Program-made: the position numbers and the translations under genes
The notes under the pieces: model-generated
Told to the model about the DNA's origin: nothing
The model's database searches: none
The model's input: only the letters and a program-made list of their open reading frames with translations
Shown: positions 25,075 through 43,503 of the stretch, piece after piece
How the letters are laid out: every line of letters starts with the position of its first letter
Numbering within the stretch: the stretch's first letter is position 1
Assembly: GCF_900475285.1 (NCBI RefSeq)
Contig: NZ_LS483370.1
Coordinates: 2,680,001-2,744,000 of the forward strand
Length of the DNA stretch: 64,000 bases
Direction of reading: 5' to 3'
DNA from: Pseudomonas taetrolens
GTDB lineage: Bacteria > Pseudomonadota > Gammaproteobacteria > Pseudomonadales > Pseudomonadaceae

Positions 25075-25665
25075 ATGAGTTTCGAAATCCGCAAGATCGT
25101 CAGCTATGTTGAAGAAACCCTCATTGAAGGCGGCAAGGCTACCGACACCCCCGTGACCATGGTCGGCCTGGCTGTAGTGATGAAGAACCCTTGGGTTGGC
25201 AATGGCTTTGTCGAAGACCTGAAACCGCAAATCCGTGCCAACTGCTCCGACCTCGGCGCCATGATGGTAGAGCGCCTGGTGAAGCTCATTGGCGGTGCCG
25301 AGAAAATCGAAGCCTACGGCAAGGCCGCGGTAGTCGGTGCCGATGGCGAAATCGAGCACGCCTCTGCCGTCATTCACACCCTGCGCTTTGGCAACCACTA
25401 CCGCGAAGCCGTTAAAGCCAAGAGCTATCTGAGCTTTACCAACAAGCGCGGCGGCCCTGGTACCTCGATCCAGATCCCAATGATGCACAAGGATGATGAG
25501 GGCCTGCGTTCGCACTACATCACCCTGGAAATGCAAATCGAAGACGCACCCCGTGCCGACGAAATCGTTGTGGTCCTGGGCTGTGCCGACGGCGGCCGTC
25601 TGCACCCGCGCATTGGCAACCGCTACATCGACCTGGAAGAACTGGCAGCCGAAAAAGCCCAGTAA
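25075..25665 (+). CDS. DUF1185 ('amino acid synthesis') family protein
   Basis: 196 aa, with AAGGAG 7 bases before the ATG. The sequence is recognisable as the family annotated 'amino acid synthesis' (PF06684, DUF1185): RKIVSYVEETLIEGG at the start, VVMKNPWVGNGFVEDL near residue 40, EAYGKAAVVGADGEIEHA near 82, and VVLGCADGGRLHPRIGNR near the end. Biochemical activity of this family is not something I can state with confidence; it often sits in catabolic clusters with flavin-dependent enzymes. Here it is the first gene of an operon running to 30488 with an operator directly in front, so it probably acts on a pathway intermediate. It is soluble and cytoplasmic. Confidence 0.85.
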   Translation: MSFEIRKIVSYVEETLIEGGKATDTPVTMVGLAVVMKNPWVGNGFVEDLKPQIRANCSDLGAMMVERLVKLIGGAEKIEAYGKAAVVGADGEIEHASAVIHTLRFGNHYREAVKAKSYLSFTNKRGGPGTSIQIPMMHKDDEGLRSHYITLEMQIEDAPRADEIVVVLGCADGGRLHPRIGNRYIDLEELAAEKAQ

Positions 25666-25711
25666 TGTCGATGTGCGTTACTACAACAAAAAAGGCATGC
25701 AGGAGCGCTCC

Positions 25712-26545
25712 ATGATTCGGCTCACCGCTGAACACACACCGGCGGGTACCAGTTACCTGGCGACCGGCCAGGGCCAGCCCGTGGTATTGATCCACGGCGT
25801 GGGCCTGAATAAAGAAATGTGGGGTGGCCAGGTCGTTGGCCTGGCCACGAAGTACCGCGTCATTGCTTATGACATGTTGGGTCATGGTGCCAGCCCTCGC
25901 CCTGAAAGTGGCACACCGCTGGTTGGCTATGCTGACCAGTTGCTGGAACTGCTCGATCATTTGCAATTGCCCCAGGCAACGGTGATCGGGTTTTCCATGG
26001 GCGGGCTGGTAGCACGGGCGTTTGCCCTGCATTACCCGCAGCGTTTGCATGGCCTGGTGGTACTCAACAGCGTATTCAACCGCAGCCCGGAACAGCGTGC
26101 AGGCGTTATCGCCCGAACCGCGCAAGCGGCCGAACATGGTCCGGATGCCAACGCCGAAGCCGCACTGTCACGTTGGTTCAGCCGCGAGTACCAGGCGGCC
26201 AACCCGGCCCAGATCGCGGCTTTGCGTCAGACCCTGGCCAATAACGACCCACAGGGTTACCTGACCACCTATGAGTTGTTCGCAACCCAGGACATGTACC
26301 GCGCCGATGACTTGAACCATATTCAAGTGCCGACGCTGATCGCGACCGGCGAGCTGGACCCGGGTTCAACCCCGCAAATGGCCATGCAATTGGCCGAGCG
26401 CATTCCCGGCGCACGCGTTGCTGTGCTCCCCGAGCAACGGCATATGATGCCCGTTGAATCGCCGCGTCTGGTCAACCAGCTGTTGCTGGAATTTCTCGAC
26501 ACAACGCACTCCCGACAAAATCTAATAAAGGGGATTGTTGCATGA
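25712..26545 (+). CDS. Alpha/beta-fold hydrolase
   Basis: 277 aa from ATG 25712 (AGGAG 6 bases upstream); a start at 25697 would add five residues. It is a classic single-domain hydrolase: oxyanion motif HGVGLNKEMW (~29-37), nucleophile elbow GFSMGG with Ser95, acid Asp216 (GELDPGS) and His244 (EQRHMMP). By family it hydrolyses an ester, enol-lactone or carbamate-like bond. In the Rut pathway a similar enzyme (RutD) works beside a flavin monooxygenase, and that composition is repeated in this island. The stop overlaps the ATG of the next gene (ATGA), indicating translational coupling. Confidence 0.9.
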   Translation: MIRLTAEHTPAGTSYLATGQGQPVVLIHGVGLNKEMWGGQVVGLATKYRVIAYDMLGHGASPRPESGTPLVGYADQLLELLDHLQLPQATVIGFSMGGLVARAFALHYPQRLHGLVVLNSVFNRSPEQRAGVIARTAQAAEHGPDANAEAALSRWFSREYQAANPAQIAALRQTLANNDPQGYLTTYELFATQDMYRADDLNHIQVPTLIATGELDPGSTPQMAMQLAERIPGARVAVLPEQRHMMPVESPRLVNQLLLEFLDTTHSRQNLIKGIVA

Positions 26546-28023
26546 CACTCGAACGTTTCCAGATGTGCATCGACGGCGAATGGGTCGATGCCCTATCCGG
26601 CAAGACCTTTGACAGCCTTAACCCGGCTCTGGCCCAACCTTGGGCGCAACTGCCGGATGCCGACGAAAACGATGTGGAGCGTGCCGTCCAGGCCGCCCAG
26701 CGCGCCTTCGACAGCCCGGCCTGGCGCAACCTGACGGCCACCGCGCGCGGCAAGCTGCTGCGCCGCCTGGGTGACTTGATCGCCGAGAACAAGGAGCACC
26801 TGGCGCAGCTGGAAAGCCGCGATAACGGCAAGCTGATTCGCGAAACCCGCGGCCAGGTCAGTTATCTGCCAGAGTTTTTCCACTACACCGCAGGCCTTGC
26901 CGACAAGCTTGAAGGCGGCACCCTGCCGCTGGACAAGCCCGACCTGTTTGCCTACACGGTGCACGAAGCCATGGGCGTGGTCGCCGCGATCATCCCCTGG
27001 AACAGCCCGTTGTACCTGACCGCAATCAAGATGGCACCGGCGCTTGCCGCTGGCAACACCATCGTGATCAAACCATCGGAGCATGCCTCCGCGACCATTC
27101 TCGAACTGGCACGCCTGGCGCTCGAAGCCGGCATCCCGGCGGGTGTCGTCAACGTGGTCACCGGCTACGGCCCGAGTACCGGCGCGGCGCTGACCCGTCA
27201 TCCGCTGGTGCGCAAAATCGCCTTCACCGGCGGCGCCGCCACTGCCCGGCATGTGGTGCGCAGCAGCGCCGAGAATTTCGCCAAACTGTCGCTGGAACTA
27301 GGCGGCAAGTCACCCAATATCATTTTTGCCGATGCAGACCTCGACAGCGCCATCAACGGGGCTATTGCCGGCATTTACGCGGCATCGGGCCAGAGCTGCG
27401 TCTCCGGTTCGCGGCTGCTGGTGCAAGACGAAATCTACGATGAGTTTGTCGAACGTCTGGTCGAGCGCGCCAAGCGTATCCGCATTGGCAACCCGCAAGA
27501 TGACGCCAGCGAAATGGGCCCCATGGCCACCGCCCAGCAACTGGCCGTGGTCGAAGGACTGGTGGCCGATGCCATCGCCGAAGGTGCGCACTTGCGGCTT
27601 GGCGGTAAACGGCCACAGAACCTGGGCGACGGCTGGTTCTACGAGCCGACGCTGTTCGAATGCGACAGCAACTCGATGAAGATCATGCAGGAAGAAGTGT
27701 TCGGCCCGGTGGCCTCCGTGATTCGATTCAAGGACGAGGCCGAGGCACTGGCGATTGCCAACGACTCACAGTTCGGTCTCGCCGCCGGTATCTGGACCCG
27801 AGACCTGGGACGCGCCCATCGACTGGCCCGGGATGTACGTTCGGGCATCATTTGGGTCAATACTTACCGCGCCGTGTCAGCCATGGCACCCATCGGCGGT
27901 TTCAAAAACAGCGGCTATGGACGCGAGAGCGGCATCGATTCGGTGCTGGCCTATACCGAACTCAAAACGGTATGGATCAACCTCTCCCAGGCCCCCATGC
28001 CTGATCCGTTCGTGATGCGCTAG
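26542..28023 (+). CDS. NAD(P)-dependent aldehyde dehydrogenase
   Basis: 493 aa, normal length for the family. Catalytic Cys286 lies in GQSCVSGSR and the general base Glu252 in LELGGKSPN; the AAIIPWNSPLYL cofactor-site motif is near residue 150. It oxidises an aldehyde to the acid with NAD(P)+. It is distinct from the SSADH-like enzyme at 28627, so the pathway probably has two aldehyde intermediates. It overlaps the upstream hydrolase by ATGA. The substrate cannot be told from sequence. A small open-chain aldehyde from ring opening is inferred from context. Confidence 0.93.
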   Translation: MTLERFQMCIDGEWVDALSGKTFDSLNPALAQPWAQLPDADENDVERAVQAAQRAFDSPAWRNLTATARGKLLRRLGDLIAENKEHLAQLESRDNGKLIRETRGQVSYLPEFFHYTAGLADKLEGGTLPLDKPDLFAYTVHEAMGVVAAIIPWNSPLYLTAIKMAPALAAGNTIVIKPSEHASATILELARLALEAGIPAGVVNVVTGYGPSTGAALTRHPLVRKIAFTGGAATARHVVRSSAENFAKLSLELGGKSPNIIFADADLDSAINGAIAGIYAASGQSCVSGSRLLVQDEIYDEFVERLVERAKRIRIGNPQDDASEMGPMATAQQLAVVEGLVADAIAEGAHLRLGGKRPQNLGDGWFYEPTLFECDSNSMKIMQEEVFGPVASVIRFKDEAEALAIANDSQFGLAAGIWTRDLGRAHRLARDVRSGIIWVNTYRAVSAMAPIGGFKNSGYGRESGIDSVLAYTELKTVWINLSQAPMPDPFVMR

Positions 28024-28035
28024 GAGGCAACCGAC

Positions 28036-28521
28036 ATGATCGAACCCGGCATTTACAAAGACGTCATGAGCTCGTTCCCGTCCGGTGTGACGGTGGTCAC
28101 CACCCTGGACCCTGACGGTGGCATCGTGGGCATCACGGCCAGCGCATTCAGTGCGCTGTCGATTGACCCGGCGCTGGTGCTGTTTTGCCCGAACTACGCC
28201 TCCGACACCTACCCGATCCTGCGTGACAGCAAGCAATTCGCGATTCATTTGCTGTCCGCCGGGCAGACCGCCGAAGCCTACGCGTTTGCCAGTAAAGGCA
28301 AGGAGAAGGCCAAAGGCATCGAGTGGCAACTGAGTGCTCTGGGCAATCCGTTGCTGAACGAAGCCACGGCCATCATCGAGTGCGAACTGTGGCGCGAATA
28401 CGACGGTGGCGATCACGCGATCATCGTCGGTGCGGTTAAGAACCTGATTCTGCCCGAGCAACCCGTCACGCCGATGATCTACCACAAAGGCAAGCTAGGC
28501 CCTCTGCCCACCCTCGCGTAG
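28036..28521 (+). CDS. Flavin reductase (two-component monooxygenase partner), copy 1
   Basis: 161 aa of the flavin-reductase-like FMN-binding family: FPSGVTVVTT (~14-23), a GITASAFSALSIDPALVLFC segment (~35-55) and the C-terminal GDHAIIVG. Such proteins use NAD(P)H to make free reduced FMN or FAD for a partner oxygenase. AGGAGG is in front. A close paralogue of the same length lies at 39455, directly upstream of the LLM monooxygenase, so the island holds two reductases for one obvious oxygenase. It is in an operon with the aldehyde dehydrogenases. The 105 bp after it show nothing notable. Confidence 0.92.
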   Translation: MIEPGIYKDVMSSFPSGVTVVTTLDPDGGIVGITASAFSALSIDPALVLFCPNYASDTYPILRDSKQFAIHLLSAGQTAEAYAFASKGKEKAKGIEWQLSALGNPLLNEATAIIECELWREYDGGDHAIIVGAVKNLILPEQPVTPMIYHKGKLGPLPTLA

Positions 28522-28626: not shown

Positions 28627-30102
28627 ATGCCCCCTGCAGCCACGCAACTGTTTCGCCAGCAGGCCTATATCGACGGCCAATGGCTGGATGCGCCAGACGG
28701 CGCGTATCAGGAGATTTTCAACCCGGCTACCGGCGAGCGCATCGGCCAGGTTCCCGCGCTTGGCGCAATACACGCGCGCGCCGCCATCACCGCGGCCAAC
28801 AAAGCCTGGCCGGCGTGGCGTGCACTGACCGCCAAAGAGCGCAGCCGCCTGCTCAAATGCTGGCACGCACTGATGCTGGAACACGCCGATGAACTGGCCG
28901 CCATCCTCACCCTCGAACAGGGCAAGCCACTGGCCGAGGCCAAAGGCGAAATCCTCTACGCCGCAAGCTTTATCGAGTGGTTCGCCGAAGAGGCGAAGCG
29001 GGTCTACGGTGACACCATTCCCAGCCATAAAGGCGATGCGCGCATCGTTGTCAGCAAGGAGCCGATCGGCGTGGTCGCGGCCATCACCCCGTGGAACTTC
29101 CCGGCGGCGATGATCACCCGCAAGGCCGGCCCGGCGTTGGCCGCCGGTTGCCCGTGCATCGTCAAACCGGCTCCCGAAACACCGTTCTCGGCACTGGCCA
29201 TGGCTGCACTGGCGGAACAGGCCGGTATTCCGCCGGGCATTTTCAACGTCATCACCGGCGACGCCATCGCCATTGGCGCTGAGCTGACAGCCAGCCCGCT
29301 GGTACGCAAACTGTCGTTCACGGGGTCTACCGCCATCGGCAAACTATTGATGGCACAGTGCGCGCCGACCCTGAAAAAAGTTTCGCTGGAGCTGGGCGGC
29401 AATGCCCCCTTCATCGTGTTCGACGACGCCAACCTGGAGCGTGCGGTCGAAGGCGCGCTGATTGCCAAATTTCGCAATGCCGGACAAACCTGCGTCTGCG
29501 TCAACCGTTTCCTGGTACAGGCCGGTATTCATGACGCCTTTGTTGCACGCCTGGCCGAGCGTGTCGCCCAACTGCAGGTGGGCAGCGGTTTCGAGGCAAG
29601 CAGCACCCAGGGCCCGTTGATCAACGAACGGGCGGTGGCCAAGGTCGAAGACCATGTGCAAGACGCCCTCGCCCACGGCGCCCGGTTGCTGTGCGGCGGC
29701 GAGCGCCATGCCCTGGGCCACGGTTTTTTCCAGCCTACGGTTCTGGCCGGCATTACCGCCTCGATGAAAGTGGCCAAAGAAGAAACCTTTGGTCCGCTGG
29801 CCGCCGTCTTCCGCTTTGAGACCGAAGCCCAGGCGATCCATATGGCCAATGACACGGAATTCGGGCTTGCGGCCTATTGCTACACCCGCGACCTGGGTCG
29901 TGCCTGGCGCATGAGCGAGGCCTTGGAGTACGGCATGGTCGGGATCAACGAAGGGCTGATTTCCACCGAAGTGGCCCCTTTCGGAGGGATCAAGTCTTCC
30001 GGCCTGGGCCGTGAAGGCTCCAAGTACGGAATTGAGGATTACCTGGAACTCAAATACACCTTGATGGGTGGGTTGGATGACTTTGGGAGCACACCGCAAT
30101 GA
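28627..30102 (+). CDS. NAD-dependent succinate-semialdehyde dehydrogenase-like protein
   Basis: 491 aa, GabD-like. Catalytic Cys289 lies in FRNAGQTCVCVNRF, the motif typical of succinate-semialdehyde dehydrogenases, and base Glu255 in LELGGNAPF. TPWNFPAAMITRK near residue 155 and the C-terminal GIKSSGLGREGSKYGIEDYLE also match the GabD group. It would convert succinic semialdehyde to succinate, feeding the TCA cycle. This is the strongest hint about the end product of the island, although related semialdehydes such as glutarate semialdehyde cannot be excluded. It overlaps the next gene by ATGA. Confidence 0.9.
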   Translation: MPPAATQLFRQQAYIDGQWLDAPDGAYQEIFNPATGERIGQVPALGAIHARAAITAANKAWPAWRALTAKERSRLLKCWHALMLEHADELAAILTLEQGKPLAEAKGEILYAASFIEWFAEEAKRVYGDTIPSHKGDARIVVSKEPIGVVAAITPWNFPAAMITRKAGPALAAGCPCIVKPAPETPFSALAMAALAEQAGIPPGIFNVITGDAIAIGAELTASPLVRKLSFTGSTAIGKLLMAQCAPTLKKVSLELGGNAPFIVFDDANLERAVEGALIAKFRNAGQTCVCVNRFLVQAGIHDAFVARLAERVAQLQVGSGFEASSTQGPLINERAVAKVEDHVQDALAHGARLLCGGERHALGHGFFQPTVLAGITASMKVAKEETFGPLAAVFRFETEAQAIHMANDTEFGLAAYCYTRDLGRAWRMSEALEYGMVGINEGLISTEVAPFGGIKSSGLGREGSKYGIEDYLELKYTLMGGLDDFGSTPQ

Positions 30103-30488
30103 GTCATGAAAAGTATGAACAAGGGCTGAAAATCCGCACTCAGGTCCTGGGTGAAGCCTACGTCAATCGCTCTATCGAGAACGCAGACGACTTCACCCGC
30201 CCGCTTCAGGAAATGGTCACTGAGTACTGCTGGGGCCACGTCTGGGGCCGTGATGGCTTGTCGCTTAAAGAGCGCAGCATGATAAACTTGGCAATGATTT
30301 CGGCCCTCAACCGGCCACACGAACTCAAGCTGCATGTACGTGGTGCCTTGCGTAACGGCCTGAGTCGTGAACAAATACGCGAAATTCTGCTTCAGGTCGG
30401 CATTTACTGCGGTGTACCCGCTGCCGTAGACAGTTTCCGGCTTGCCCGTGAAGCGTTTGCCGAAGCCGATGCCGAGGCCTCCAGTTAA
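30099..30488 (+). CDS. Carboxymuconolactone decarboxylase family protein
   Basis: 129 aa, the usual length. It shows the family pattern: YCWGHVWGRDGLSLKERSM (~46-64), ALNRPHELKLHVRGALRNGLS (~70-90) and REILLQVGIYCGVPAA (~95-110). True members decarboxylate gamma-carboxymuconolactone; others are AhpD-like reductants. AhpD enzymes need a CxxC pair, which is absent here, so a lyase- or decarboxylase-like role on a pathway intermediate is more likely. It is the last gene of the operon 25075-30488 and is followed by a terminator. Confidence 0.88.
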   Translation: MSHEKYEQGLKIRTQVLGEAYVNRSIENADDFTRPLQEMVTEYCWGHVWGRDGLSLKERSMINLAMISALNRPHELKLHVRGALRNGLSREQIREILLQVGIYCGVPAAVDSFRLAREAFAEADAEASS

Positions 30489-30580: not shown

Positions 30581-31899
<1,319 letters not shown>

Positions 31900-32277: not shown

Positions 32278-32306
32278 TCAGGCGCATCATATCCGGAGAA
32301 TCCAGC

Positions 32307-33416
32307 ATGGCCTTCAACAGCATCGAAGAAATCATCGCCGACTATAAGCTCGGCAGAATGGTGCTCATGGTAGACGACGAAGATCGGGAAAACGAAGGCG
32401 ACCTGCTGCTGGCTGCCGACTGTTGCAACGCTGAGGCCATCAGCTTTATGGCCCGGGAAGCCCGTGGTCTGATTTGCCTGACCCTGACCGACGAACATTG
32501 CCAGCGCCTGGGCCTGGAGCAGATGGTCCCCAGCAATGGCAGTGTCTTCAGTACCGCCTTCACCGTGTCCATCGAAGCCGCGACGGGTGTGACCACCGGC
32601 ATTTCCGCCGCTGACCGTGCGCGCACTGTGGCCGCAGCCGTGAACGTCAATGCCGGGCCAGCCGACCTGGTGCAGCCCGGGCACATTTTCCCGTTGCGGG
32701 CCAAGGAAGGCGGCGTATTGACCCGCGCCGGCCACACTGAAACCGGCTGCGACCTGGCGCGCCTTGCCGGTTTTACCCCGGCCTCGGTGATTGTCGAAGT
32801 CATGAATGATGACGGCACCATGGCCCGTCGACCTGATCTGGAAGTCTTCGCCCGCAAGCATGGCATCAAGATCGGCACCATTGCCGACCTGATTCACTAC
32901 CGTCTCAGCACCGAACGCACCGTGGTACGCATCGGCGAACGAGAACTGCCCACCGTGCATGGCAACTTCCGCCTGATCACCTTTGAAGATCGCATTGAAG
33001 GCGGCGTGCACATGGCAATGGTCATGGGCACCTTGCACCGGGACGATCCGACTCTGGTGCGGGTGCATGTAATCGATCCGTTGCGCGATCTGGTCGGTGC
33101 TGCATACAGCGGCCCTTCGAACTGGACGCTGTGGGCCGCACTGCAGCGAGTGGCTGAAGAAGGCCGGGGTGTGGTGGTGGTGCTGGCCAACCATGAATCG
33201 TCCCAGGCGCTGCTTGAGCGCGTGCCGCAATTGACCCAGCCTCCTCGTCAGTTCAATCGCTCGCAATCGCGAATTTATTCAGAAGTGGGCACCGGGGCGC
33301 AAATCCTTCAGGACCTCGGCGTGGGCAAGCTGCGTCATCTCGGTCCCCCGCTCAAGTACGCCGGCTTGACCGGATATGACCTCGAAGTGGTGGAGAGCAT
33401 TGCCTTTACCGGCTGA
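32307..33416 (+). CDS. ribB: 3,4-dihydroxy-2-butanone-4-phosphate synthase (RibB) with degenerate RibA-like domain
   Basis: 369 aa from ATG 32307, with GGAG 8 bases upstream. The N-terminal half (~1-205) is RibB: DDEDRENEGDLLLAADC (acidic metal site), THxx-type segments replaced by GHTETGCDLARLAG, and HGIKIGTIADLIHYRL. The C-terminal half (~210-369) resembles GTP cyclohydrolase II but lacks its zinc cysteines and the GDxFGSxRCDC motif. It is therefore the RibBX-like type, not a bifunctional RibBA. It would make one riboflavin precursor. Control by the island operator suggests extra flavin supply for the flavin-dependent monooxygenase. No FMN riboswitch precedes it. Confidence 0.9.
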   Translation: MAFNSIEEIIADYKLGRMVLMVDDEDRENEGDLLLAADCCNAEAISFMAREARGLICLTLTDEHCQRLGLEQMVPSNGSVFSTAFTVSIEAATGVTTGISAADRARTVAAAVNVNAGPADLVQPGHIFPLRAKEGGVLTRAGHTETGCDLARLAGFTPASVIVEVMNDDGTMARRPDLEVFARKHGIKIGTIADLIHYRLSTERTVVRIGERELPTVHGNFRLITFEDRIEGGVHMAMVMGTLHRDDPTLVRVHVIDPLRDLVGAAYSGPSNWTLWAALQRVAEEGRGVVVVLANHESSQALLERVPQLTQPPRQFNRSQSRIYSEVGTGAQILQDLGVGKLRHLGPPLKYAGLTGYDLEVVESIAFTG

Positions 33417-35652: not shown

Positions 35653-36462
35653 ATGCTGCTGACCCCCAATGCGATGAGCCGACGCATGCGTTTCGGACTC
35701 TATTCCACCACCGGGCTGATCGCGCTGTTCCTGCTGCTGCCCATCGTGTTCATCGTCCTGCTTTCATTTGGTTCATCCCAATGGCTGGTGTTCCCGCCCC
35801 CTGGCTGGACACTGAAATGGTATGGCCAGTTCTTCTCCAATGCCGACTGGATGAATGCGGCGCTGGCCAGCCTCAAGGTCGCACTGCTGACCACCGTTTT
35901 CGCCGTGGCGCTGGGCCTGCCCACCGCGTTTGCACTGGTGCGCGGGCGCTTCCCGGGACGCGAAATGCTCTACGGGTTGTTTACCCTGCCGATGATCGTG
36001 CCACTGGTGATTATCGCGGTGGCGGTCTACGCGCTGTTTCTCAAGCTGGGTTACACCGGCACCCTGTTCGCTTTCGTGGTCAGCCACGTCATTGTGGCGT
36101 TACCGTTCACCATCATCTCGATCATCAACTCTCTGAAGCTGTTCGATCAATCGATCGAGGATGCGGCGGTGATTTGTGGTGCGTCACGCTTGCAAGCCGT
36201 GTTCAAAGTGACCTTTCCGGCGATTCGCCCCGGCATGATTGCCGGCGCCCTGTTCGCATTTCTGGTGTCGTGGGATGAAGTGGTGCTGAGCGTAATGATG
36301 GCCAGCCCGACCCTGCAAACCTTGCCGGTCAAAATGTGGACCACGCTGCGGCAGGACCTGACCCCCGTTATTGCTGTGGCCTCAACGCTGCTGATCGGCC
36401 TTTCGGTGCTGGTCATGGTGATCGCCGCCGCCCTTCGCAGACGCAACCCAATCAGCGCTTAA
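35653..36462 (+). CDS. ABC transporter permease (PotC/PotI-like)
   Basis: 269 aa with six predicted membrane helices and the EAA-type loop EDAAVICGASRLQAVFKVTF (~170-190). It is partner to the permease at 34702, from which it is separated by 6 bp. It is the second half of the import channel. Length and topology are normal for the family. Confidence 0.92.
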   Translation: MLLTPNAMSRRMRFGLYSTTGLIALFLLLPIVFIVLLSFGSSQWLVFPPPGWTLKWYGQFFSNADWMNAALASLKVALLTTVFAVALGLPTAFALVRGRFPGREMLYGLFTLPMIVPLVIIAVAVYALFLKLGYTGTLFAFVVSHVIVALPFTIISIINSLKLFDQSIEDAAVICGASRLQAVFKVTFPAIRPGMIAGALFAFLVSWDEVVLSVMMASPTLQTLPVKMWTTLRQDLTPVIAVASTLLIGLSVLVMVIAAALRRRNPISA

Positions 36463-36479
36463 GCGCCCAGGAGAACGAC

Positions 36480-37634
36480 ATGAGTGCTGTGATCAAAAAC
36501 CTCGAACAACCCACCGACCTGCCCCTTGTCAGCCTGCGTAACCTGAACAGGCACTACGGCGATTTTGCTGCCGTGGACAACATCTCGCTGGACATCAAGG
36601 AGGGTGAATTCCTCACCTTCCTCGGGTCCAGCGGGTCAGGTAAAAGCACCACCCTGTCGATGCTTGCCGGCTTCGAAACACCGAGCAGCGGCGAGATTCT
36701 GGTCAACGGCCAATCGCTGGTCAACGTGCCGCCCCACAAGCGCGACATCGGCATGGTGTTTCAGCGCTACTCACTGTTCCCGCACTTGTCAGTGCGCGAC
36801 AACATCGCGTTCCCGCTGGCGATTCGCAAGCTGTCCAGTGCCGAGCGCGACCGCCGGGTCGACGCCATGCTCAAACTGGTCCAACTGGATACGTTCGCCC
36901 ATCGCCGTCCGTCCCAACTCTCCGGTGGCCAGCAGCAACGCGTGGCCATCGCCCGGGCGCTGGTCTATGAACCACGCATTCTGCTGATGGATGAGCCCCT
37001 GGGGGCCCTCGACAAAAAGCTGCGCGAAGACTTGCAGGACGAGCTGCGCCAACTGCATCGACGTCTGGGCATCACCATCGTCTACGTCACCCACGACCAG
37101 GAAGAAGCCATGCGCCTGTCCCAGCGCATCGCCATTTTCAGTCACGGCAAGATTGTCGGCCTGGGCAGTGGGTACGACCTTTACCAGAACCCGCCCAACG
37201 CCTTTGTCGCGTCGTTCCTCGGCAACTCTAACTTCCTCAGGCTCAAGGCCCGGGGCAGTGGTGCTGCAAGCTTTGAAGGCCAGCCGTTGTCGATTCGCCT
37301 CACCGCCGGCCTGCACAACGATCAGGATGTGTTACTGATGGTCCGTCCGGAAAAGGCCCAGGCTCTGAGCTTGCAGCAAGCTCACCAGGAGCCTTTGGCC
37401 AGCGGCTGGAACGCCGTATCGGCGAAAGTGCTGGAAGTACTGTTTCTGGGCGAAAGCCAGACCTGCAGCGTCGTTACGGCCGGCGGCACGGCAATGACCG
37501 TCAAGGCGCTGTCTGCCGCCGGCATGCCGCTCAAGGCCGGCGACCCGGTGCAAGTACGCTGGGCCACGGCTGACGCCTGCGTATACACCGACTGGGCGGA
37601 AAGCGATCTGAACAAAGCCGCCGCTCACTCCTGA
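36480..37634 (+). CDS. ABC transporter ATP-binding protein (PotA/PotG-like)
   Basis: 384 aa from ATG 36480 (AGGAG upstream). Walker A GSSGSGKST (~50-58), Q-loop VFQRYSLFPHLSV, signature LSGGQQQR (~145-152), Walker B ILLMDEP and the H-loop THDQEEA are all intact. The C-terminal ~120 residues form the TOBE domain typical of polyamine-type importers. It powers import through the two permeases. It is the last gene of the four-gene operon and is followed by a strong bidirectional terminator. Confidence 0.94.
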   Translation: MSAVIKNLEQPTDLPLVSLRNLNRHYGDFAAVDNISLDIKEGEFLTFLGSSGSGKSTTLSMLAGFETPSSGEILVNGQSLVNVPPHKRDIGMVFQRYSLFPHLSVRDNIAFPLAIRKLSSAERDRRVDAMLKLVQLDTFAHRRPSQLSGGQQQRVAIARALVYEPRILLMDEPLGALDKKLREDLQDELRQLHRRLGITIVYVTHDQEEAMRLSQRIAIFSHGKIVGLGSGYDLYQNPPNAFVASFLGNSNFLRLKARGSGAASFEGQPLSIRLTAGLHNDQDVLLMVRPEKAQALSLQQAHQEPLASGWNAVSAKVLEVLFLGESQTCSVVTAGGTAMTVKALSAAGMPLKAGDPVQVRWATADACVYTDWAESDLNKAAAHS

Positions 37635-37725: not shown

Positions 37726-39132
37726 CTAGTCGCTGTAGACCAGCGTTGCGGATTTGACGCCCTGTGCCTGTCCACGCGTCGCCAGGCAGTAGTACAGCGG
37801 GCATGTAACCACCAGCCCGACCAGCCACGACAGGTCAGCACCTTCCACCAGGTTGGCATACGGGCCAACATACAGCGAGGTGTTGGCAAACGGCAGTTGC
37901 ACAATGATGCCGATGAAATACGCCACGATTGCGTACAGGTTATAGCGCCCGTAGATCCCGCCATCCGCACTGAAAATCGAGGCAATGTCGTAGTTGCCGC
38001 GCTTGATCACATAGAAGTCGATCAGATTGATCGAAGCCCAGGGCACCAGCACCAGCAACAGCGCCAGGATCAGGCCGATGAACTGCGAAATGAAGTCCGC
38101 CGAGGCGCTCAGGGCAACCAGGCAGCAACCGCTCAGCACAATAGCCGACAACACCACCCGCACCTTGATGCTGGGTGTCCACTGGCTGGCGAACGTCTGG
38201 ATCGAGGTGATGATCGACAGCACCGCACCGTACAGATTCAACGCGTTGTGACTGATGATATTGAGCAGGAACAGCACCATCAGAATCGGCCCAAGCCAGC
38301 CCGTCGACTGCTTGACCGCGACCATTGCCTCAGTCCCTTCGGGGGTCGCCAGTACCGCGACCGCGCCGAACGAAAAGGACAGTATCGTGCCCAGGGTCGC
38401 CCCCAGGTAAGTAGCAAAGAATGGTTTGGCAAAGCCGATGTCGGCCGGCAGGTACCGCGAATAGTCCGAGACATACGGCGAGAAGCTGATCTGCCAGATG
38501 ATCCCCAGTGACACCGTTGCCAGCCATCCGGAAAGGTTGAAACCGCCACGGGTCAGGAAGTCGGCCGGCAAGTCATGGGCGAATATGTACAGAAAGCCGG
38601 CCAGCAAGGCGCTGCCCATGACCCAGGTGCCAATGCGATTGAGGGTATGAATGAAACGGTAACCGATCACGCCAATCGCTGTTGCGCTCAAGGCACCGAT
38701 CAGAATGCTCGCAGGCACCGGTACCGACGGGACAATCCCGACAATGGATTTGCCGGCCAGTACGATATTGGAGATGAAAAAGCCGACATAAATGATCGCC
38801 GCAAAACAGACGATCAACAGCGCACCATAGCGGCCGAACTGGCCACGGCTCTGGACCATTTGCGGGATCCCCATGCGCGGCCCCTGGGCTGACGCCAGGG
38901 CAATCACGAGGCCACCGACCATGTGCCCCAAGGCAATCGCCAGCAGGCCCCAAAACAGGTCGAGGTGGAACACTTGCACCACCATTGCGCCCGTCACGAT
39001 GGGCAGGGGCGCAATATTGGTACTGAACCATAGGGTGAACAGGTCGCGGGCCTTCCCATGGCGTTCCGCGAGTGGGACGTAGTCGACCGTGTGGTTCTCG
39101 ATCAGGGGGTCTTGCCGGGACATCTGGGACAT
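37726..39132 (-). CDS. NCS1-family permease, copy 1
   Basis: 468 aa with about twelve membrane helices. NCS1 hallmarks: the N-terminal DYVPLAERHGKARDLFTLWF, AQGPRMGIPQMVQSRGQFG between helices 2 and 3, SPYVSDYSRYLP near the middle, and the C-terminal VPWASINLIDFYVIKRG. The family imports nucleobases, hydantoins, allantoin and some B vitamins, usually with Na+ or H+. It is one of two NCS1 permeases in the island (the other at 42142); they are recognisably related but not near-identical. Operator site 4 lies 88 bp before the start. The transporter class supports a small planar N-heterocycle as substrate. Confidence 0.92.
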   Translation of the reverse strand: MSQMSRQDPLIENHTVDYVPLAERHGKARDLFTLWFSTNIAPLPIVTGAMVVQVFHLDLFWGLLAIALGHMVGGLVIALASAQGPRMGIPQMVQSRGQFGRYGALLIVCFAAIIYVGFFISNIVLAGKSIVGIVPSVPVPASILIGALSATAIGVIGYRFIHTLNRIGTWVMGSALLAGFLYIFAHDLPADFLTRGGFNLSGWLATVSLGIIWQISFSPYVSDYSRYLPADIGFAKPFFATYLGATLGTILSFSFGAVAVLATPEGTEAMVAVKQSTGWLGPILMVLFLLNIISHNALNLYGAVLSIITSIQTFASQWTPSIKVRVVLSAIVLSGCCLVALSASADFISQFIGLILALLLVLVPWASINLIDFYVIKRGNYDIASIFSADGGIYGRYNLYAIVAYFIGIIVQLPFANTSLYVGPYANLVEGADLSWLVGLVVTCPLYYCLATRGQAQGVKSATLVYSD

Positions 39133-39219
39133 AGGAATGAACTCAAGTTTGTCTGATCTTATAGTTGTATGAAGCCAAACCGGAGGTGCTCTCTGGCAAC
39201 CCCTCAGATGAGTACCATA

Positions 39220-39235
39220 TTATGGTATTCCAAAC
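39220..39235. promoter_or_regulatory. GntR-type operator, site 4
   Basis: TTATGGTATTCCAAAC, with an overlapping inverted repeat TACCATATTATGGTA at 39213-39227, lies upstream of the NCS1 permease start at 39132. It could allow two bound dimers. It is the exact reverse complement of site 3. Confidence 0.75.
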
Positions 39236-39392
39236 TTAAAACAAGACTGATCCGGTCCCTGAGCGCTCATCTGATCCGCAATCCTGACGCATCAATGCCG
39301 GGATCTTCCAGTTAAAACCCCCGTTAACATTGACTTTAAGACCGATGGTGTACGTTTATCGTTTCACTAAAAAAGACCTTGCAAAGAACGTA

Positions 39393-39408
39393 TTACGGTA
39401 TACCATCA
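39393..39408. promoter_or_regulatory. GntR-type operator, site 5
   Basis: TTACGGTATACCATCA keeps the GGTATACC core. It lies 46 bp before the flavin reductase start at 39455. The gap 39133-39454 contains only sites 4 and 5 and AT-rich promoter-like sequence. Confidence 0.75.
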
Positions 39409-39454
39409 GACCTACAAATCATAAAAACCAGCCCCACCGTTCGAGGACCGTCCC

Positions 39455-39940
39455 ATGATTGATGCCGCCATCTACAAACAAGTAATGGGTTCGTTTCCGT
39501 CCGGGGTCACCGTCATCACCACCCTGGATGACGACGGCCAGGTCGTCGGCCTGACTGCCAGCGCTTTCAGCTCGCTGTCGATGGATCCGGCACTGGTACT
39601 GTTCTGCCCCAACTACAGCTCGGATTCCTACCCGGTACTGATCAAAAATAAACGCTTTGCCATCCACGTCCTTTCCGGCGGCCAGCAAAATGAGGCCTAT
39701 GCCTTTGCACGCAAGGGCAAAGACAAGGCTCAAGGCCTGGAATGGACACTGAGCGCGCTGGGCAACCCGATCCTGGCCAATGCCACGGCGGTCATCGAAT
39801 GCGAGCTGTGGCGCGAATATGAAGGAGGCGATCACGCCATCATGGTCGGCTCGGTGAAGAACCTGATCGTGCCCCGGCACAACGCCGGACCGTTGGTCTA
39901 TTGCCACGGCAAGATGGGTGCCCTGCCCGCCCTCGCCTGA
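39455..39940 (+). CDS. Flavin reductase, copy 2
   Basis: 161 aa and closely similar to the reductase at 28036 along its whole length (SFPSGVTVITT, GLTASAFSSLSMDPALVLFC, GDHAIMVG, and the ending LGxLPxLA). It reduces FMN or FAD with NAD(P)H. Its place 171 bp upstream of the LLM monooxygenase gene makes it the most obvious partner of that enzyme. It has its own operator in front, and another operator separates it from the monooxygenase, so the two genes may be expressed in different ratios. Retention of two paralogues suggests either dosage or two separate flavin steps. Confidence 0.93.
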   Translation: MIDAAIYKQVMGSFPSGVTVITTLDDDGQVVGLTASAFSSLSMDPALVLFCPNYSSDSYPVLIKNKRFAIHVLSGGQQNEAYAFARKGKDKAQGLEWTLSALGNPILANATAVIECELWREYEGGDHAIMVGSVKNLIVPRHNAGPLVYCHGKMGALPALA

Positions 39941-39964
39941 TGGCAAGACCGTGGCCTTTACGTA

Positions 39965-39980
39965 TTATGGAATACCGCAA
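39965..39980. promoter_or_regulatory. GntR-type operator, site 6
   Basis: TTATGGAATACCGCAA is the most diverged copy but keeps GG-N2-TACC. It lies in the 171-bp gap before the LLM monooxygenase at 40112. Confidence 0.65.
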
Positions 39981-40111
39981 AACCCGCAGCCGCTCTACGC
40001 TCTTGCGCCGAGCGCCTCAAGCAGCCAGAACACCCGGGAGCGTCCAGCGCTCCTTCCAGAAAACAGGTCTGCAGTCGACAGGCCGCCAATAAAAGATTTG
40101 AGGTAAGCGTC

Positions 40112-41155
40112 ATGAAGTTTTCCCTGTTCGTACACATGGAGCGCTGGGACGAAAGCATCAGCCATCGTCAGCTGTTCGAAGACCTGACCGAATTGACCCT
40201 GATGGCAGAAGCCGCTGGCTTCAGCACAGTATGGATTGGCGAACACCACGCCATGGAGTACACCATTTCACCGAGTCCCATGCCGCTGCTGGCGTACCTC
40301 GCGGGCAAAACCACCACCATTCACCTTGGCGCCGGCACCATCATCGCGCCCTTCTGGCATCCGCTGCGAGTGGCCGGTGAGTGTGCGCTGCTCGACGTGA
40401 TCAGCAACGGACGCATGGAAGTCGGTCTGGCCCGTGGCGCCTATCAGGTGGAGTTCGACCGGATGGCCGGTGGCATGCCGGCTTCGTCCGGCGGTCAGGC
40501 CTTGCGCGAAATGGTCCCGGTGGTGCGTGCGCTGTGGCAAGGCGACTACGCCCACGATGGCGATATCTGGAAATTCCCGACGTCCACCAGCGTACCGAAG
40601 CCGATCCAGAAGCCTAACCCGCCGATGTGGATCGCCGCGCGCGACCCGGATTCCCACAACTTCGCCGTCGCCAATGGCTGCAACGTGATGGTCACGCCGC
40701 TGATGAAAGGCGACGAAGAAGTCCTCGACCTGAAGAACAAGTTTCAGGCCGCGCTCGACAACAATCCGGACGTCCCGCGCCCGCAACTGATGGTGCTGCG
40801 TCACACCCACGTTCACGCGCCGGACGATACCGAAGGCTGGAAAATCGGGGCCCGGGCCATTTCGCGTTTTTACCGCACTTTCGATGCCTGGTTCGGCAAC
40901 AAGCAAGTGCCGGTCAATGGTTTCCTGGCACCCAGCCCGGAGGATAAGTTCGCCGAGCGCCCGGAATTCCAACTGGAAAACATCCGCAAAACCGCGATGA
41001 TCGGCACCGCCGAAGAAATAATTCCGCGCATCAAGCACTATCAGGAACTGGGTGTGGACGAGTTCAGCTTCTGGTGTGACAACAGCTTGCCCCACGCGGA
41101 AAAGAAAAAGTCCCTGGAACTGTTTATCAAACACGTGGTTCCAGCGTTTCGCTGA
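40112..41155 (+). CDS. LLM-class flavin-dependent monooxygenase
   Basis: 347 aa, a luciferase-like TIM-barrel oxygenase: MKFSLFVHMERWDES at the start, AGFSTVWIGEHHAMEY (~35-50), LGAGTIIAPFWHPLRVAGECALLD (~72-95), NGRMEVGLARGAYQVEFDRM (~100-120) and the C-terminal GTAEEIIPRIKHYQELGVDEFSFW. It uses reduced flavin from a separate reductase and O2. RutA, which opens uracil, and the flavin-dependent ring-opening enzyme of bacterial pyridine degradation are of this general type. It is the probable key enzyme of the island, inserting oxygen into or opening the ring of the substrate. GAGGTAA precedes the ATG. Confidence 0.93.
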   Translation: MKFSLFVHMERWDESISHRQLFEDLTELTLMAEAAGFSTVWIGEHHAMEYTISPSPMPLLAYLAGKTTTIHLGAGTIIAPFWHPLRVAGECALLDVISNGRMEVGLARGAYQVEFDRMAGGMPASSGGQALREMVPVVRALWQGDYAHDGDIWKFPTSTSVPKPIQKPNPPMWIAARDPDSHNFAVANGCNVMVTPLMKGDEEVLDLKNKFQAALDNNPDVPRPQLMVLRHTHVHAPDDTEGWKIGARAISRFYRTFDAWFGNKQVPVNGFLAPSPEDKFAERPEFQLENIRKTAMIGTAEEIIPRIKHYQELGVDEFSFWCDNSLPHAEKKKSLELFIKHVVPAFR

Positions 41156-41214
41156 AACCACTGACCAGCCCCGGACATGCAGGCCGGGGGTAACTGACCT
41201 GCAGGGTCGAAGCC

Positions 41215-41367
41215 ATGATCACTCACCGCCTCCCATTGCTCACCCTTCCCTGCAGTGCCGAGCAGGTTTACCTGCGCGGTGAATGGACCGCTTCACACAT
41301 CCGCCTCAAACGCCTGCGCGCCAGCGTTGCAGCCAAGCAGAATGGTTTCTGGCAAATAGTTCACTGA
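41215..41367 (+). CDS. Possible small protein, 50 aa
   Basis: An open frame MITHRLPLLTLPCSAEQVYL continues to RGEWTASHIRLKRL and ends WQIVH. The ribosome site is weak (AGGG about 9 bases before the ATG). No family is recognised. It fills part of the 303-bp gap between the monooxygenase and the cysteine hydrolase, which otherwise shows nothing and has no operator copy. It could be a genuine small protein, a decayed gene or chance. Confidence 0.25.
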   Translation: MITHRLPLLTLPCSAEQVYLRGEWTASHIRLKRLRASVAAKQNGFWQIVH

Positions 41368-41458
41368 GCCGACCCGAACTAACATAAACGCACGCCACGC
41401 CGCGCCCTCAACCGGCGTGCCCGTGCATTGCGCTTCGGCTCATGATCAGGTTTGCCCA

Positions 41459-42136
41459 ATGAACAATAACAACGCGCTGTTGATCATCGACATGCAACAG
41501 GAGGACGGTTTCGTCCTCAAAAACTTCGAGGCGGTGCAGGCCAACACCGCCGCCTTGCTCGAGACCGCCCGCAGCCAGCGGATCCCGGTCATTTATACCC
41601 GTCATGTCAATCAGGCTGACGGCAGTGACATGCCTCATGGCGAACCCCGCGACGCCGACGGAGGACCGAGTGGCTACCGCGCCGGCACCCGTCAAGTGGA
41701 AATCATCGAGCATCTGGCACCTCTGCCGGATGAATGCGTCATCGACAAGGGTCGTTACAGTGCCTTCCACCGCACCGACCTGGATGCCCGGCTCAAGACT
41801 CTCAGGGTTGATACCCTGATTATCAGCGGCGTGCTGACCGATGTCTGCGTGCTCAGCAGCGTATTCGATGCCTTCGCCCTGGGTTATCGCATTCGCCTGG
41901 TCAGCGACGCCTGCACCACCACCACGCTGGCTGGCCACTATGCGGCGCTGTTGATAATGGCTAATTGGGTGTATGCCCTCGAAATCCTCACCACCGACCA
42001 ATGCCAGCGCGCGCTGCAAGGGCTTGCTCACCTGAGTCTGATCACCGAAGGGCCGGATGAGTTCGCCCACCCGCCTCACGCGTTCGAAAGCACCATCGCC
42101 CGCCTGCAGGCGCACCTCACCCGGACTCAGGAGTAA
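41459..42136 (+). CDS. Cysteine hydrolase (isochorismatase-like)
   Basis: 225 aa from ATG 41459. The catalytic triad is complete: Asp11 (IIDMQ), Lys97 (IDKGRYSAF) and Cys130 (GVLTDVCVLS), with the family's cis-peptide region just before the cysteine. Members cleave amides, ureido acids or N-carbamoyl groups; RutB in uracil breakdown is one. In this island it would release ammonia, formate or a carbamate from the ring-opened product, which is inference from family and context. The stop is 5 bp before the NCS1 permease start, so they form an operon. Confidence 0.92.
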   Translation: MNNNNALLIIDMQQEDGFVLKNFEAVQANTAALLETARSQRIPVIYTRHVNQADGSDMPHGEPRDADGGPSGYRAGTRQVEIIEHLAPLPDECVIDKGRYSAFHRTDLDARLKTLRVDTLIISGVLTDVCVLSSVFDAFALGYRIRLVSDACTTTTLAGHYAALLIMANWVYALEILTTDQCQRALQGLAHLSLITEGPDEFAHPPHAFESTIARLQAHLTRTQE

Positions 42137-42141
42137 TCGCC

Positions 42142-43503
42142 ATGCAAGTCGAAAAAAGAAGCATCGATTTCGTCCCTGAATCCGAGCGTCACGGTCATCC
42201 CGGCTCGCTGTTCTTTATCTGGTTTGGCGCCAACATGAACATCACCACCATCGCTTCCGGCGTGCTACCGGTGGTGATGGGGCTGAACCTGTTCTGGAGT
42301 GCTCTGGCGATCATTATCGGTTCGCTGGTGGGGGCAATCTTCATGGCCTCTCACTCGGCACAGGGCCCGAAGCTGGGAATCCCGCAAATGATCCAGAGCC
42401 GGGCGCAATTCGGCGTGCTGGGTGCGGTGTTGCCGTTGTTGTTCGTGATGCTGATTTACCTGGGGTTCTTTGTCAGCAACACCCTGCTCGCCGCCCAGGC
42501 GCTGGAGTCCGTCAGCCCGTTGCCGGCCACCGGCAACATCTACCTGATCGGCGCGCTGTGCTTCGTCGTCGCGCTGTATGGCTATCGCCTGATTCATCGT
42601 CTGCAGAAGCTGCTGTCTCTGCTGTCGCTGCTGATCTTCGCGGCCGCCACGTTGCTCGCTTTGCAGCTCCCGATAGCACCCGAACAATGGCTGCCGACGG
42701 GCTTCGTGCTGTCGAAGTTTCTGGTCGCGGTGAGCATTGCCGTGACCTGGCAGCTGTCGTACGCACCGTATGTCGCTGACTATTCGCGCTACCTGCCGAG
42801 CAACACCTCGTCGGCGAAAGTATTTTGGTACAGCTATGCCGGCACGGTCAGCGGTGGCGCCTGGATGATGATTCTGGGCGCCATGCTCAGCGTGGGTATC
42901 GGTGACTTTTCGAGCAATGTCGGTGGGCATGTTGTCGGGTTGTTTGGCGGCGGCGCATGGCTGCTGTTCGCGTTCATCCTGTACGGTCAGGTGTCGATCA
43001 ACGTCTTCAATCTGTATGGCGCGTTCATGTCGACCATCACCGTCATCGAACCCTTTGCCCGGCTCAAGGTGACGCCACGGGTGCGTGGCCTGTTCATGCT
43101 GGTGATCAGCCTGGTGGCGACAGCCTTGTGCACCATCAGCCAGGACAACTTCATCAACTTTTTCCTCAATTTCATCTTCTTCATGAGCTACTTCCTGATC
43201 CCATGGACGGCGATCAATCTGGTGGACTACTACTGCCTGCGCAAAGGTCAGTACCGGATTGACGATATCTTCGACATGAACGGGATGTACGGACGCATCA
43301 ACTGGATTGCCTGCGGCTGTTTTGTACTGGCGATCGCCCTCGAAATCCCCTTCATGAACACCACCTTGTACATTGGCCCGGTCGCCACGGCACTGGACGG
43401 CGTAGACCTGGCCTGGCTGGTTGGCTTGCTGGTACCTGCGCTGAGCTATTACTGGCTGATGAAACTCGACAAGCGCACCCACGGCGTCGCCGGCCTGTCG
43501 TGA
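42142..43503 (+). CDS. NCS1-family permease, copy 2
   Basis: 453 aa, about twelve membrane helices. It has the same NCS1 landmarks as copy 1: FVPESERHGHPGSLFFIWF, AQGPKLGIPQMIQSRAQFG, APYVADYSRYLPS and IPWTAINLVDYYCLRKGQ. Sequence between the landmarks differs clearly from copy 1, so the two may take different compounds, such as the parent and a metabolite. It follows the cysteine hydrolase by 5 bp. No operator copy stands directly before this pair, so read-through from the monooxygenase or a separate promoter is needed. Confidence 0.92.
   Translation: MQVEKRSIDFVPESERHGHPGSLFFIWFGANMNITTIASGVLPVVMGLNLFWSALAIIIGSLVGAIFMASHSAQGPKLGIPQMIQSRAQFGVLGAVLPLLFVMLIYLGFFVSNTLLAAQALESVSPLPATGNIYLIGALCFVVALYGYRLIHRLQKLLSLLSLLIFAAATLLALQLPIAPEQWLPTGFVLSKFLVAVSIAVTWQLSYAPYVADYSRYLPSNTSSAKVFWYSYAGTVSGGAWMMILGAMLSVGIGDFSSNVGGHVVGLFGGGAWLLFAFILYGQVSINVFNLYGAFMSTITVIEPFARLKVTPRVRGLFMLVISLVATALCTISQDNFINFFLNFIFFMSYFLIPWTAINLVDYYCLRKGQYRIDDIFDMNGMYGRINWIACGCFVLAIALEIPFMNTTLYIGPVATALDGVDLAWLVGLLVPALSYYWLMKLDKRTHGVAGLS

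Follow-up and report, generated by a model that had tools for sequence, protein, structure and literature searches.

The window analysed here is a 64,000-nucleotide stretch of the Pseudomonas taetrolens genome. Between positions 25075 and 43503, family models recognize an LLM flavin-dependent monooxygenase, two flavin reductases, an isochorismatase-fold hydrolase, an alpha/beta hydrolase, and two aldehyde dehydrogenases, as a preliminary description of this DNA had listed. Also present are the DUF1185 and CMD-family proteins that it named, together with its three uptake systems, of which two are NCS1 permeases and the third is an ABC system (PF06684, PF02627, PF02133, and PF13416). Three genes of the interval played no part in its reasoning: a regulator gene of the GntR/FCD type, the gene of a NUDIX hydrolase with a zinc ribbon, and a second gene of RibBA type. 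The features are as follows (percentages are protein identities; mismatches refer to the palindrome described below).

25019..25034, operator-like palindrome before DUF1185, 0 mismatches
25075..25665, plus strand, DUF1185/AA_synth protein (TgnF-like); PF06684, 236.9 bits; 56% to A. baylyi protein
25712..26545, plus strand, alpha/beta hydrolase (TgnD-like); PF00561; 35% to A. baylyi hydrolase
26542..28023, plus strand, first aldehyde dehydrogenase, ALDH1 (TgnC-like); PF00171; 52% to A. baylyi dehydrogenase
28036..28521, plus strand, flavin reductase 1 (TgnB-like domain); PF01613; 37% to the reductase half of an A. baylyi 310-aa protein
28627..30102, plus strand, succinate-semialdehyde dehydrogenase, SSADH (TgnE-like); TIGR01780 over cut-off; 70% to A. 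baylyi
30099..30488, plus strand, CMD-family protein; PF02627; 77% to A. baylyi CMD gene
30581..31333, plus strand, GntR/FCD regulator (TgnR-like); PF00392 and PF07729; 36% to A. baylyi GntR
31336..31899, plus strand, NUDIX hydrolase with zinc ribbon; PF00293 and PF14803
32260..32275, operator-like palindrome before RibBA, 0 mismatches
32298..33416, plus strand, RibBA/RibBX-type riboflavin gene; NF009132 over cut-off; ribA model 34.9 against a cut-off of 205.9 bits
33503..33518, operator-like palindrome before the ABC operon, 2 mismatches
33680..34705, plus strand, ABC substrate-binding protein, PotD type; PF13416; 60% to S. meliloti pSymA cluster protein
34681..35646, plus strand, ABC permease 1; PotB/PotH-like, below cut-offs; 61% in S. 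meliloti cluster
35653..36462, plus strand, ABC permease 2; PotC-like, below cut-off
36477..37634, plus strand, ABC ATPase; PotA-like, just below cut-off
37726..39132, minus strand, NCS1 permease, core; PF02133; 55% to NCS1 permease of A. baylyi cluster
39218..39233, operator-like palindrome before the minus-strand NCS1 gene, 2 mismatches
39391..39406, operator-like palindrome before flavin reductase 2, 1 mismatch
39455..39940, plus strand, flavin reductase 2 (TgnB-like domain); 38% to A. baylyi
39963..39978, weak operator-like site before LLM, 3 mismatches
40112..41155, plus strand, LLM flavin-dependent monooxygenase, TgnA homolog of a sister clade in the tree; PF00296; 49% over 346 residues to A. 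baylyi
41459..42136, plus strand, isochorismatase-family amidohydrolase, accessory; PF00857
42142..43503, plus strand, NCS1 permease 2, accessory, paired with the isochorismatase gene; PF02133

Every core gene of the island has a counterpart in one cluster of the Acinetobacter baylyi type strain (DSM 14961, L079), which we take to be the trigonelline (tgn) cluster. Trigonelline (N-methylnicotinate) is a common plant pyridine compound and a metabolite of plants and algae, and the tgn pathway breaks it down into methylamine, formate, CO2, and succinate semialdehyde. The tgn trigonelline catabolic cluster of A. baylyi was reportedly described by Perchat et al. (PNAS, 2018). Island and A. baylyi cluster share DUF1185, alpha/beta hydrolase, flavin reductase, LLM, ALDH, and NCS1 genes, as well as SSADH, CMD, a GntR/FCD-type regulator, and a palindromic site. 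Five types of enzymes and helpers of a tgn cluster lie together, with identities of 37-38% (flavin reductases), 52% (ALDH), 35% (hydrolase), 70% (SSADH), and 56% (DUF1185). The low value of the hydrolase counts against a tgn assignment; its gene follows DUF1185 in A. baylyi too. The second aldehyde dehydrogenase, earlier called SSADH-like, scores above the SSADH model cut-off (727 vs 646 bits), and the CMD gene overlaps the SSADH stop in A. baylyi as well. The CMD protein narrowly passes the PcaC model (156.2, cut-off 155.7). DUF1185 and CMD had been regarded as extras, which they are not, since the A. baylyi cluster contains both.

There are also differences between the two clusters. The island LLM belongs to a sister clade, and RibBA, the ABC importer, the isochorismatase, and the second NCS1 permease are extra in the island, while A. 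baylyi has a porin and another operon arrangement. A flavin reductase and a Nudix-like domain are fused in A. baylyi; in the island they are separate and there are two reductases, 70% identical to each other (PF01613 is shown for the first). The NUDIX hydrolase, whose gene is directly 3' of the regulator gene, has its homolog in the C-terminal half of the 310-aa flavin reductase of A. baylyi (25%, E 9e-08). A counterpart of flavin reductase 2 is found within the LLM stretch of most relatives.

With varying completeness, the cluster set recurs across the 80 named loci that were retained. On pSymA of Sinorhizobium meliloti it is located between noeB and nifT (L064). PMC6297676 lists a reference whose title assigns genes of trigonelline catabolism to the symbiotic region of pSym. 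As in the island, DUF1185, hydrolase, reductase, LLM, ALDH, a PotD-type ABC importer, SSADH, and a palindromic site are found there. Unlike the island, L064 has an LLM of the A. baylyi clade and a NIPSNAP gene, and no NCS1 or CMD match was seen within the 21-kb stretch. The LLM on plasmid pDCT5 of Arthrobacter dokdonellae (L065) is 76% identical to that of the island, and it is accompanied by a cytosine-permease-type NCS1, NUDIX, reductase, GntR, DUF1185, hydrolase, ALDH, and SSADH genes. This cluster differs in having riboflavin kinase in place of RibBA, a tautomerase, two DUF1185 genes, no CMD match, no adjoining PotD-type ABC system, and no palindrome at two or fewer mismatches.

The palindrome ATGGTATACCAT is found upstream of five island genes and weakly of a sixth. 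When the extended motif is searched at two or fewer mismatches, all five places in the 4.84-Mb genome are inside the island. Because the palindrome precedes five of its genes and all close matches in the genome are located there, the island looks like one regulon. At three mismatches four unrelated places of the genome appear as well, so that the weak LLM site cannot be distinguished from background; a site within 300 bp of LLM is found in 10 of 23 relatives. After removal of duplicates, 73 distinct operator-like sites are found across 24 of 24 genomes. Sites before CMD (3 of 20) are probably due to chance. In A. baylyi, S. meliloti, Mesorhizobium, and Leisingera, the same palindrome lies upstream of DUF1185. 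Thus, judged from sequence, the island appears to have both the FCD-type regulator and the shared operator-like palindrome of a tgn cluster.

According to a passage of PMC8269262, the trigonelline ring is opened by TgnA/TgnB. In a tree built by a quick method, for which the tool warned of long branches elsewhere, the island LLM falls not in the clade of the A. baylyi LLM (39 rows, support 100), and hence is not its strict ortholog, but in a sister clade (25 rows, support 99). The sister clade spans two phyla (Pseudomonas and Actinobacteria) and is about 50% identical to the A. baylyi clade. Across both clades 121 alignment columns are identical and fixed, and there are 17 fixed differences between them. 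Given the sister clade and these differences, the substrate could differ.

Orthologs of the oxygenase and of DUF1185 are found in the identical 21 of 35 congeners, and ALDH1 has an ortholog in all 21 of the oxygenase-positive ones, to which that search was restricted. These matching distributions and the palindrome common to the island indicate an association beyond chance. Several relatives have loci with LLM only; the idea that these represent a different pathway was dropped, as DUF1185 and ALDH1 orthologs exist elsewhere in the same genomes. No tgnA-clade LLM was seen in the 36 congeneric genomes, where none of the listed non-ortholog matches exceeds 43% identity and most cover only part of the protein.

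Genes for methylamine assimilation are found near LLM in two relatives. One (G018) has gmaS, three glutamate-synthase-type genes, and amt ending 74 bp from LLM; sox-type genes lie no more than about 13 kb away. The other (G022) has gmaS and sox-type genes about 19-25 kb from LLM. Sox-type genes also adjoin the A. baylyi cluster. Of the 22 genomes with the oxygenase, 5 have GmaS over the cut-off, against 1 of the 14 without it; the negative one (G023) has a GmaS only 39% identical, and its exclusion gives 0 of 14 (p 0.13). This co-occurrence was rejected as proof of a methylamine product, so support for methylamine comes from the neighbourhood in the two genomes. Palindrome-like sites occur before gmaS in G018, G022, and G008 and are absent in G024 and G009; they could belong to another regulator and were left out of the counts.

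Trigonelline use has been scored in Pseudomonas identification tests for decades. It is used by 97.9% of P. viridiflava isolates (n=48) and by 100% of the strains in each of three P. syringae groups (33, 2, and 18 strains). A protein named P. viridiflava is an LLM ortholog of the island's oxygenase clade, 91% identical; no LLM was seen under the name P. syringae. The link to the phenotype is made by species name, not by mutant. The island offers likely genes for trigonelline use in Pseudomonas, in which no tgnA-clade oxygenase was seen among the 36 congeners searched.

From gene content, homology, co-occurrence, and shared operator-like sites, we infer the substrate, each reaction, the pairing of regulator and operator, and the role in flavin supply. 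The region 25075..43503 is, with good confidence, a Pseudomonas-type trigonelline catabolic regulon, a divergent version of the A. baylyi tgn pathway, and trigonelline itself is its probable substrate. The gene set is most likely, for the most part, a known pathway that has drifted from the Acinetobacter version. The earlier proposal of a catabolic island that opens a small N-heterocycle by flavin-dependent chemistry appears right. As proposed too, the island seems not to be a uracil pathway; the claim of an undescribed pathway is mostly wrong since the core matches the presumed tgn cluster.

In the proposed pathway, the substrate would be taken up via the ABC importer and NCS1 permease, and FMNH2 from the flavin reductases would allow the LLM oxygenase to open the N-methylpyridinium ring. 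The first aldehyde dehydrogenase would oxidize the ring-opened product, which the alpha/beta hydrolase would cleave to give methylamine, formate, CO2, and succinate semialdehyde. SSADH would then produce succinate, with the DUF1185 protein as helper. A passage of PMC7913881 reports stimulation of TgnE by TgnF, a homolog of a DUF1185-family protein, and states that a helper effect of HcdD, a DUF1185 protein, could not be observed, so the helper role in the island is uncertain. Structure papers had linked DUF1185 to amino-acid metabolism; it now gains a further, widely conserved catabolic context. The GntR/FCD regulator at ATGGTATACCAT sites would control all units jointly, including the second ribB-type gene (the genome has two ribB matches), so that the supply of flavin would probably go up together with the oxygenase. 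The island would thus be a catabolic regulon that appears to bring its own flavin-supply gene.

The same chemistry may instead act on another N-substituted pyridine, such as homarine, 1-methylnicotinamide (for which the isochorismatase would serve as amidase), or a further N-methylpyridinium compound, the clade then marking a true change of substrate. The separate, cross-phylum oxygenase clade with its fixed differences would fit, as would the two distinct NCS1 permeases and the amidohydrolase. Moreover, three Caballeronia loci have two paralogous clusters side by side, so a single cell may contain several pathways of the family. We consider this unlikely, however, as the A. baylyi and S. meliloti clusters have homologs of the transporters, the palindrome, and the downstream enzymes, a trigonelline-using Pseudomonas species has the island's clade, and the isochorismatase is not found in 33 of 36 genomes (E 1e-30), against 22 of 36 with the oxygenase. 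It is equally doubtful that the Pseudomonas/actinobacterial clade represents a distinct ring-opening enzyme acting on an N-methylpyridinium substrate of its own, which could be 1-methylnicotinamide supplied by the isochorismatase-NCS1 pair; if so, the tgn family would comprise parallel pathways for different pyridinium metabolites.

A heterocycle without the N-methyl group (pyridine, pyridone, or imide) opened by the same oxygenase family is very improbable. Bacterial pyridine ring opening likewise involves LLM, flavin reductase, aldehyde dehydrogenase, and SSADH, and the island's own genome has no GmaS over the cut-off, but the whole cluster matches that of A. baylyi and methylamine-assimilation genes are near LLM in the two relatives. 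A Rut-like pyrimidine pathway deserves hardly any credence. Rut and the island have four fold families in common, those of LLM, flavin reductase, isochorismatase, and alpha/beta hydrolase. The earlier remark that the parts are the same is misleading, as the likeness to the E. coli uracil pathway is limited to fold families. Scores are far under the cut-offs (RutB 55 vs 378, RutD 95 vs 238, and RutF 65-67 vs 255 bits), models for RutA and RutC do not appear among those listed for the island genes (for LLM, the best 25 of 30), and the isochorismatase is optional. The Rut pathway was rejected on these scores, in agreement with the earlier statement that classical uracil genes are absent.

The isochorismatase gene, which had fed the Rut analogy, is found in 3 of 36 genomes including its own (E 1e-30), and the shared palindrome was not seen upstream of it. 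Its pairing with NCS1 occurs also in three other loci (L033, L115, and L222) and one P. luteola plasmid. A Rhizobium leguminosarum pair was struck from the list for its poor alignment with the others; neither that record nor the P. luteola plasmid has an LLM match at E 1e-40. The pair is an add-on that, as a guess, perhaps converts an imported amide to the ring substrate, and its substrate is open to direct testing. As to a nicotinamidase role, the solved structures that match the isochorismatase best belong to cysteine hydrolases of the biuret-hydrolase and isochorismatase types, and a putative nicotinamidase is at rank five.

The island (window positions 25075-43503) lies in a genome of 4,843,871 bases in a single contig, and its genes occur in the following order.

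25075-43503, first part: DUF1185 protein (TgnF-like), alpha/beta hydrolase, TgnC-like aldehyde dehydrogenase (ALDH1), flavin reductase 1, succinate-semialdehyde dehydrogenase (SSADH, TgnE-like), PF02627-type protein (CMD), GntR/FCD regulator
25075-43503, second part: zinc-ribbon NUDIX hydrolase, RibBA-type protein, four-gene PotD-type ABC system
25075-43503, third part: NCS1 permease (minus strand), flavin reductase 2, LLM flavin-dependent monooxygenase (TgnA homolog), isochorismatase-fold hydrolase, second NCS1 permease

The Tgn letters are presumptive and follow gene family. The preliminary description named its parts correctly, and all of them are present in this interval. The rationale it built on these parts left out the GntR/FCD regulator, the NUDIX hydrolase, and RibBA. 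Its proposal of an undescribed pathway mostly does not hold: the island most likely encodes a known pathway in a divergent but clearly bounded version, with a counterpart cluster in Acinetobacter baylyi, and is ordinary in kind. Two long ORFs of 734 and 712 aa occupy the minus strand upstream (20264-24843); the first is autotransporter-like by eye. The island is followed by genes for a glucarate-dehydratase-like enolase and for a D-galactonate-type MFS transporter (43545-46210, minus strand; both models below cut-off), and beyond them by a LysR-looking gene. The genes of 43545-46210 are probably a separate sugar-acid unit.

Named genomes were scanned with an A. baumannii homolog as query, and the best 80 of at least 547 confirmed relatives were kept. 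The gene set was found again, more or less complete, across these 80 loci, which include the A. baylyi type strain (L079). The order there is GntR, DUF1185, hydrolase, 310-aa flavin reductase, LLM, ALDH, NCS1, porin, SSADH, and CMD. We take this cluster of strain DSM 14961, not ADP1, to be the trigonelline (tgn) cluster. Identities to the window proteins are 36% for GntR, 56% for DUF1185, 35% for the hydrolase, 37-38% for the flavin reductases, 49% for LLM, 52% for ALDH, 55% for NCS1, 70% for SSADH, and 77% for CMD; the porin is outside this set. In A. baylyi, unlike in the window, the flavin reductase carries a fused domain that shows homology to the NUDIX protein of the window (25%, E 9e-08). 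The six-protein pathway of Perchat et al. 2018 reportedly yields methylamine, formate, CO2, and succinate semialdehyde.

In Sinorhizobium meliloti pSymA the gene set is located between noeB and nifT, and a title cited in PMC6297676 (Goldmann et al.) places trigonelline catabolism genes in the symbiotic region of pSym. The trigonelline ring is described in part of PMC8269262 as opened by TgnA/TgnB. According to an excerpt of PMC7913881, TgnE is stimulated by TgnF, a homolog of a DUF1185-family protein; for the DUF1185 protein HcdD, a comparable effect could not be observed. Four homologs of the window LLM (74-80% identity, among 120 listed) carry the JGI label 'flavin-dependent trigonelline monooxygenase, oxygenase component', presumably assigned automatically. 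Among the open-access papers listed, none recognisably describes this Pseudomonas cluster; this is weak evidence of absence, since subscription journals are largely outside that scope.

In a quick-method LLM tree of 72 rows (with a long-branch warning elsewhere in the tree), the window LLM falls in a 25-row clade that joins Pseudomonas and Actinobacteria with a small number of further Gammaproteobacteria. LLMs of A. baylyi, S. meliloti, and the Burkholderia and Roseobacter types form a separate 39-row clade. Between them are two small groups, one with Caballeronia and one with Mesorhizobium. Two sequences of the same order, 63% and 56% identical to the window LLM, also branch there as single rows. 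When 148 window-clade and 79 A. baylyi-clade LLMs were aligned, 121 columns were fixed alike and 17 differently (95% level). The common columns include the EHH motif, which aligns with bacterial luciferase. In three Caballeronia loci (L095, L097, L099), paralogous tgn-type clusters occur as a back-to-back pair; their LLMs share 53% and 49% identity with the window LLM.

An LLM ortholog (84-94% identity) exists in 21 of 35 congeners. The same 21 have a DUF1185 ortholog (90-98%), which is absent from all 14 LLM-negative congeners, two of them with a 40-43% paralog only. The Fisher p of 4e-10 for this co-occurrence overstates independence because the genomes are related. ALDH1 orthologs (89-97%) were found in 21/21 LLM-positive congeners, to which that search was directed. 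In two single-contig genomes (G029 and G019) the LLM and DUF1185 halves are separated by more than 1 Mb. DUF1185 occurs in 14/293 genomes of the order sample; in the phylum sample, 22/398 genomes have an LLM match with an E-value of 1e-85 or lower. Loci L055, L056, and L060 have DUF1185 paralogs (38-43%) with a different aldehyde dehydrogenase gene a few kb off and no LLM match in the surrounding stretch; DUF1185 proteins may therefore serve other pathways as well. The cluster on an Arthrobacter dokdonellae plasmid (L065) has two DUF1185 genes side by side (8353-9512).

Several island genes are preceded by an operator-like palindrome. TGGTATACCA with at most 1 mismatch has 5 copies in the window vs 0.68 expected, and 5 was reached in 1/100 shuffles. 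Genome-wide, TATTATGGTATACCAT with at most 2 mismatches gives seven matches at five distinct places, every one inside the island; at 3 mismatches four places outside also match, and the site before LLM is only of this grade. ATGGTATACCAT with at most 1 mismatch yields 73 distinct sites over 24 genomes. All 83 counted before deduplication lie within about 300 bp before DUF1185, RibBA, flavin reductase 2, NCS1, or LLM (60 permuted palindromes: mean total 0.48, maximum 6).

Tallied per genome (at most 2 mismatches, within 300 bp, genomes with that stretch in the data), a site precedes DUF1185 in 24/24, RibBA in 17/17, the ABC substrate-binding protein gene in 16/16, NCS1 in 17/17, flavin reductase 2 in 20/21, LLM in 10/23, and CMD in 3/20; by the same measure none precedes the remaining island genes, the single isochorismatase copy included. 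With at most 2 mismatches the site is also found before DUF1185 in A. baylyi, A. baumannii, S. meliloti, M. ciceri, Leisingera, and Caballeronia, and before SSADH in both Acinetobacter loci, and is not found in the Arthrobacter (L065), Xanthomonas (L087), L052, and L053 loci. It is absent in six loci with distant DUF1185 paralogs. The palindrome is predicted to be the binding site of the island's GntR protein. In three relatives (L227:12582, L228:4961, L231:3827) operator-like palindromes with 2-3 mismatches lie about 90-140 bp ahead of gmaS.

The RibBA protein scores far below the ribA model cut-off, as RibBX variants likewise do. A role in flavin supply is suggested, since the palindrome precedes RibBA and the genome has two ribB genes, of which RibBA is one. 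In the Arthrobacter cluster, genes for riboflavin kinase and a NUDIX protein are present.

Judged from gene content and species phenotypes, trigonelline would be the substrate. It is used by 97.9% of 48 P. viridiflava isolates (PMC9412563, Table 2) and by 100% of each P. syringae group of 33, 2, and 18 strains (PMC10890144, Table 2). A 91% LLM ortholog is listed under the name P. viridiflava; among the homologs listed, none was seen under P. syringae. No A. baylyi-clade LLM was seen among the matches listed in 36 genomes, which is in favor of this substrate; non-orthologous matches there do not exceed 43% identity, and most of them are partial. The neighbors of LLM in two congeners also argue for it. 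In G018, whose proteins alone were covered by the Pfam scan of these methylamine-type neighbors, gmaS, three glutamate-synthase-type genes, and amt form a group ending 74 bp from LLM, and sox-type genes nearby are 56-85% identical to those adjoining the A. baylyi cluster. The distance from LLM to gmaS and sox-type genes in G022 is about 19-25 kb. Counted against trigonelline are the sister-clade position of the window LLM, the lack of any GmaS match above cut-off in the window genome, and the presence of gmaS over cut-off in only 5/22 LLM-positive vs 1/14 LLM-negative genomes. The value of the island lies in the apparent regulon that it defines and in the likely genes that it offers for a long-known phenotype.

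The isochorismatase gene and its neighboring NCS1 permease are beside LLM in the window genome and G021, and at another place in G033. A P. luteola plasmid has the pair without an LLM match. As a guess, the pair may handle an amide, for instance 1-methylnicotinamide, from which the ring substrate is made. In Paraburkholderia tagetis the pair adjoins an A. baylyi-type cluster.
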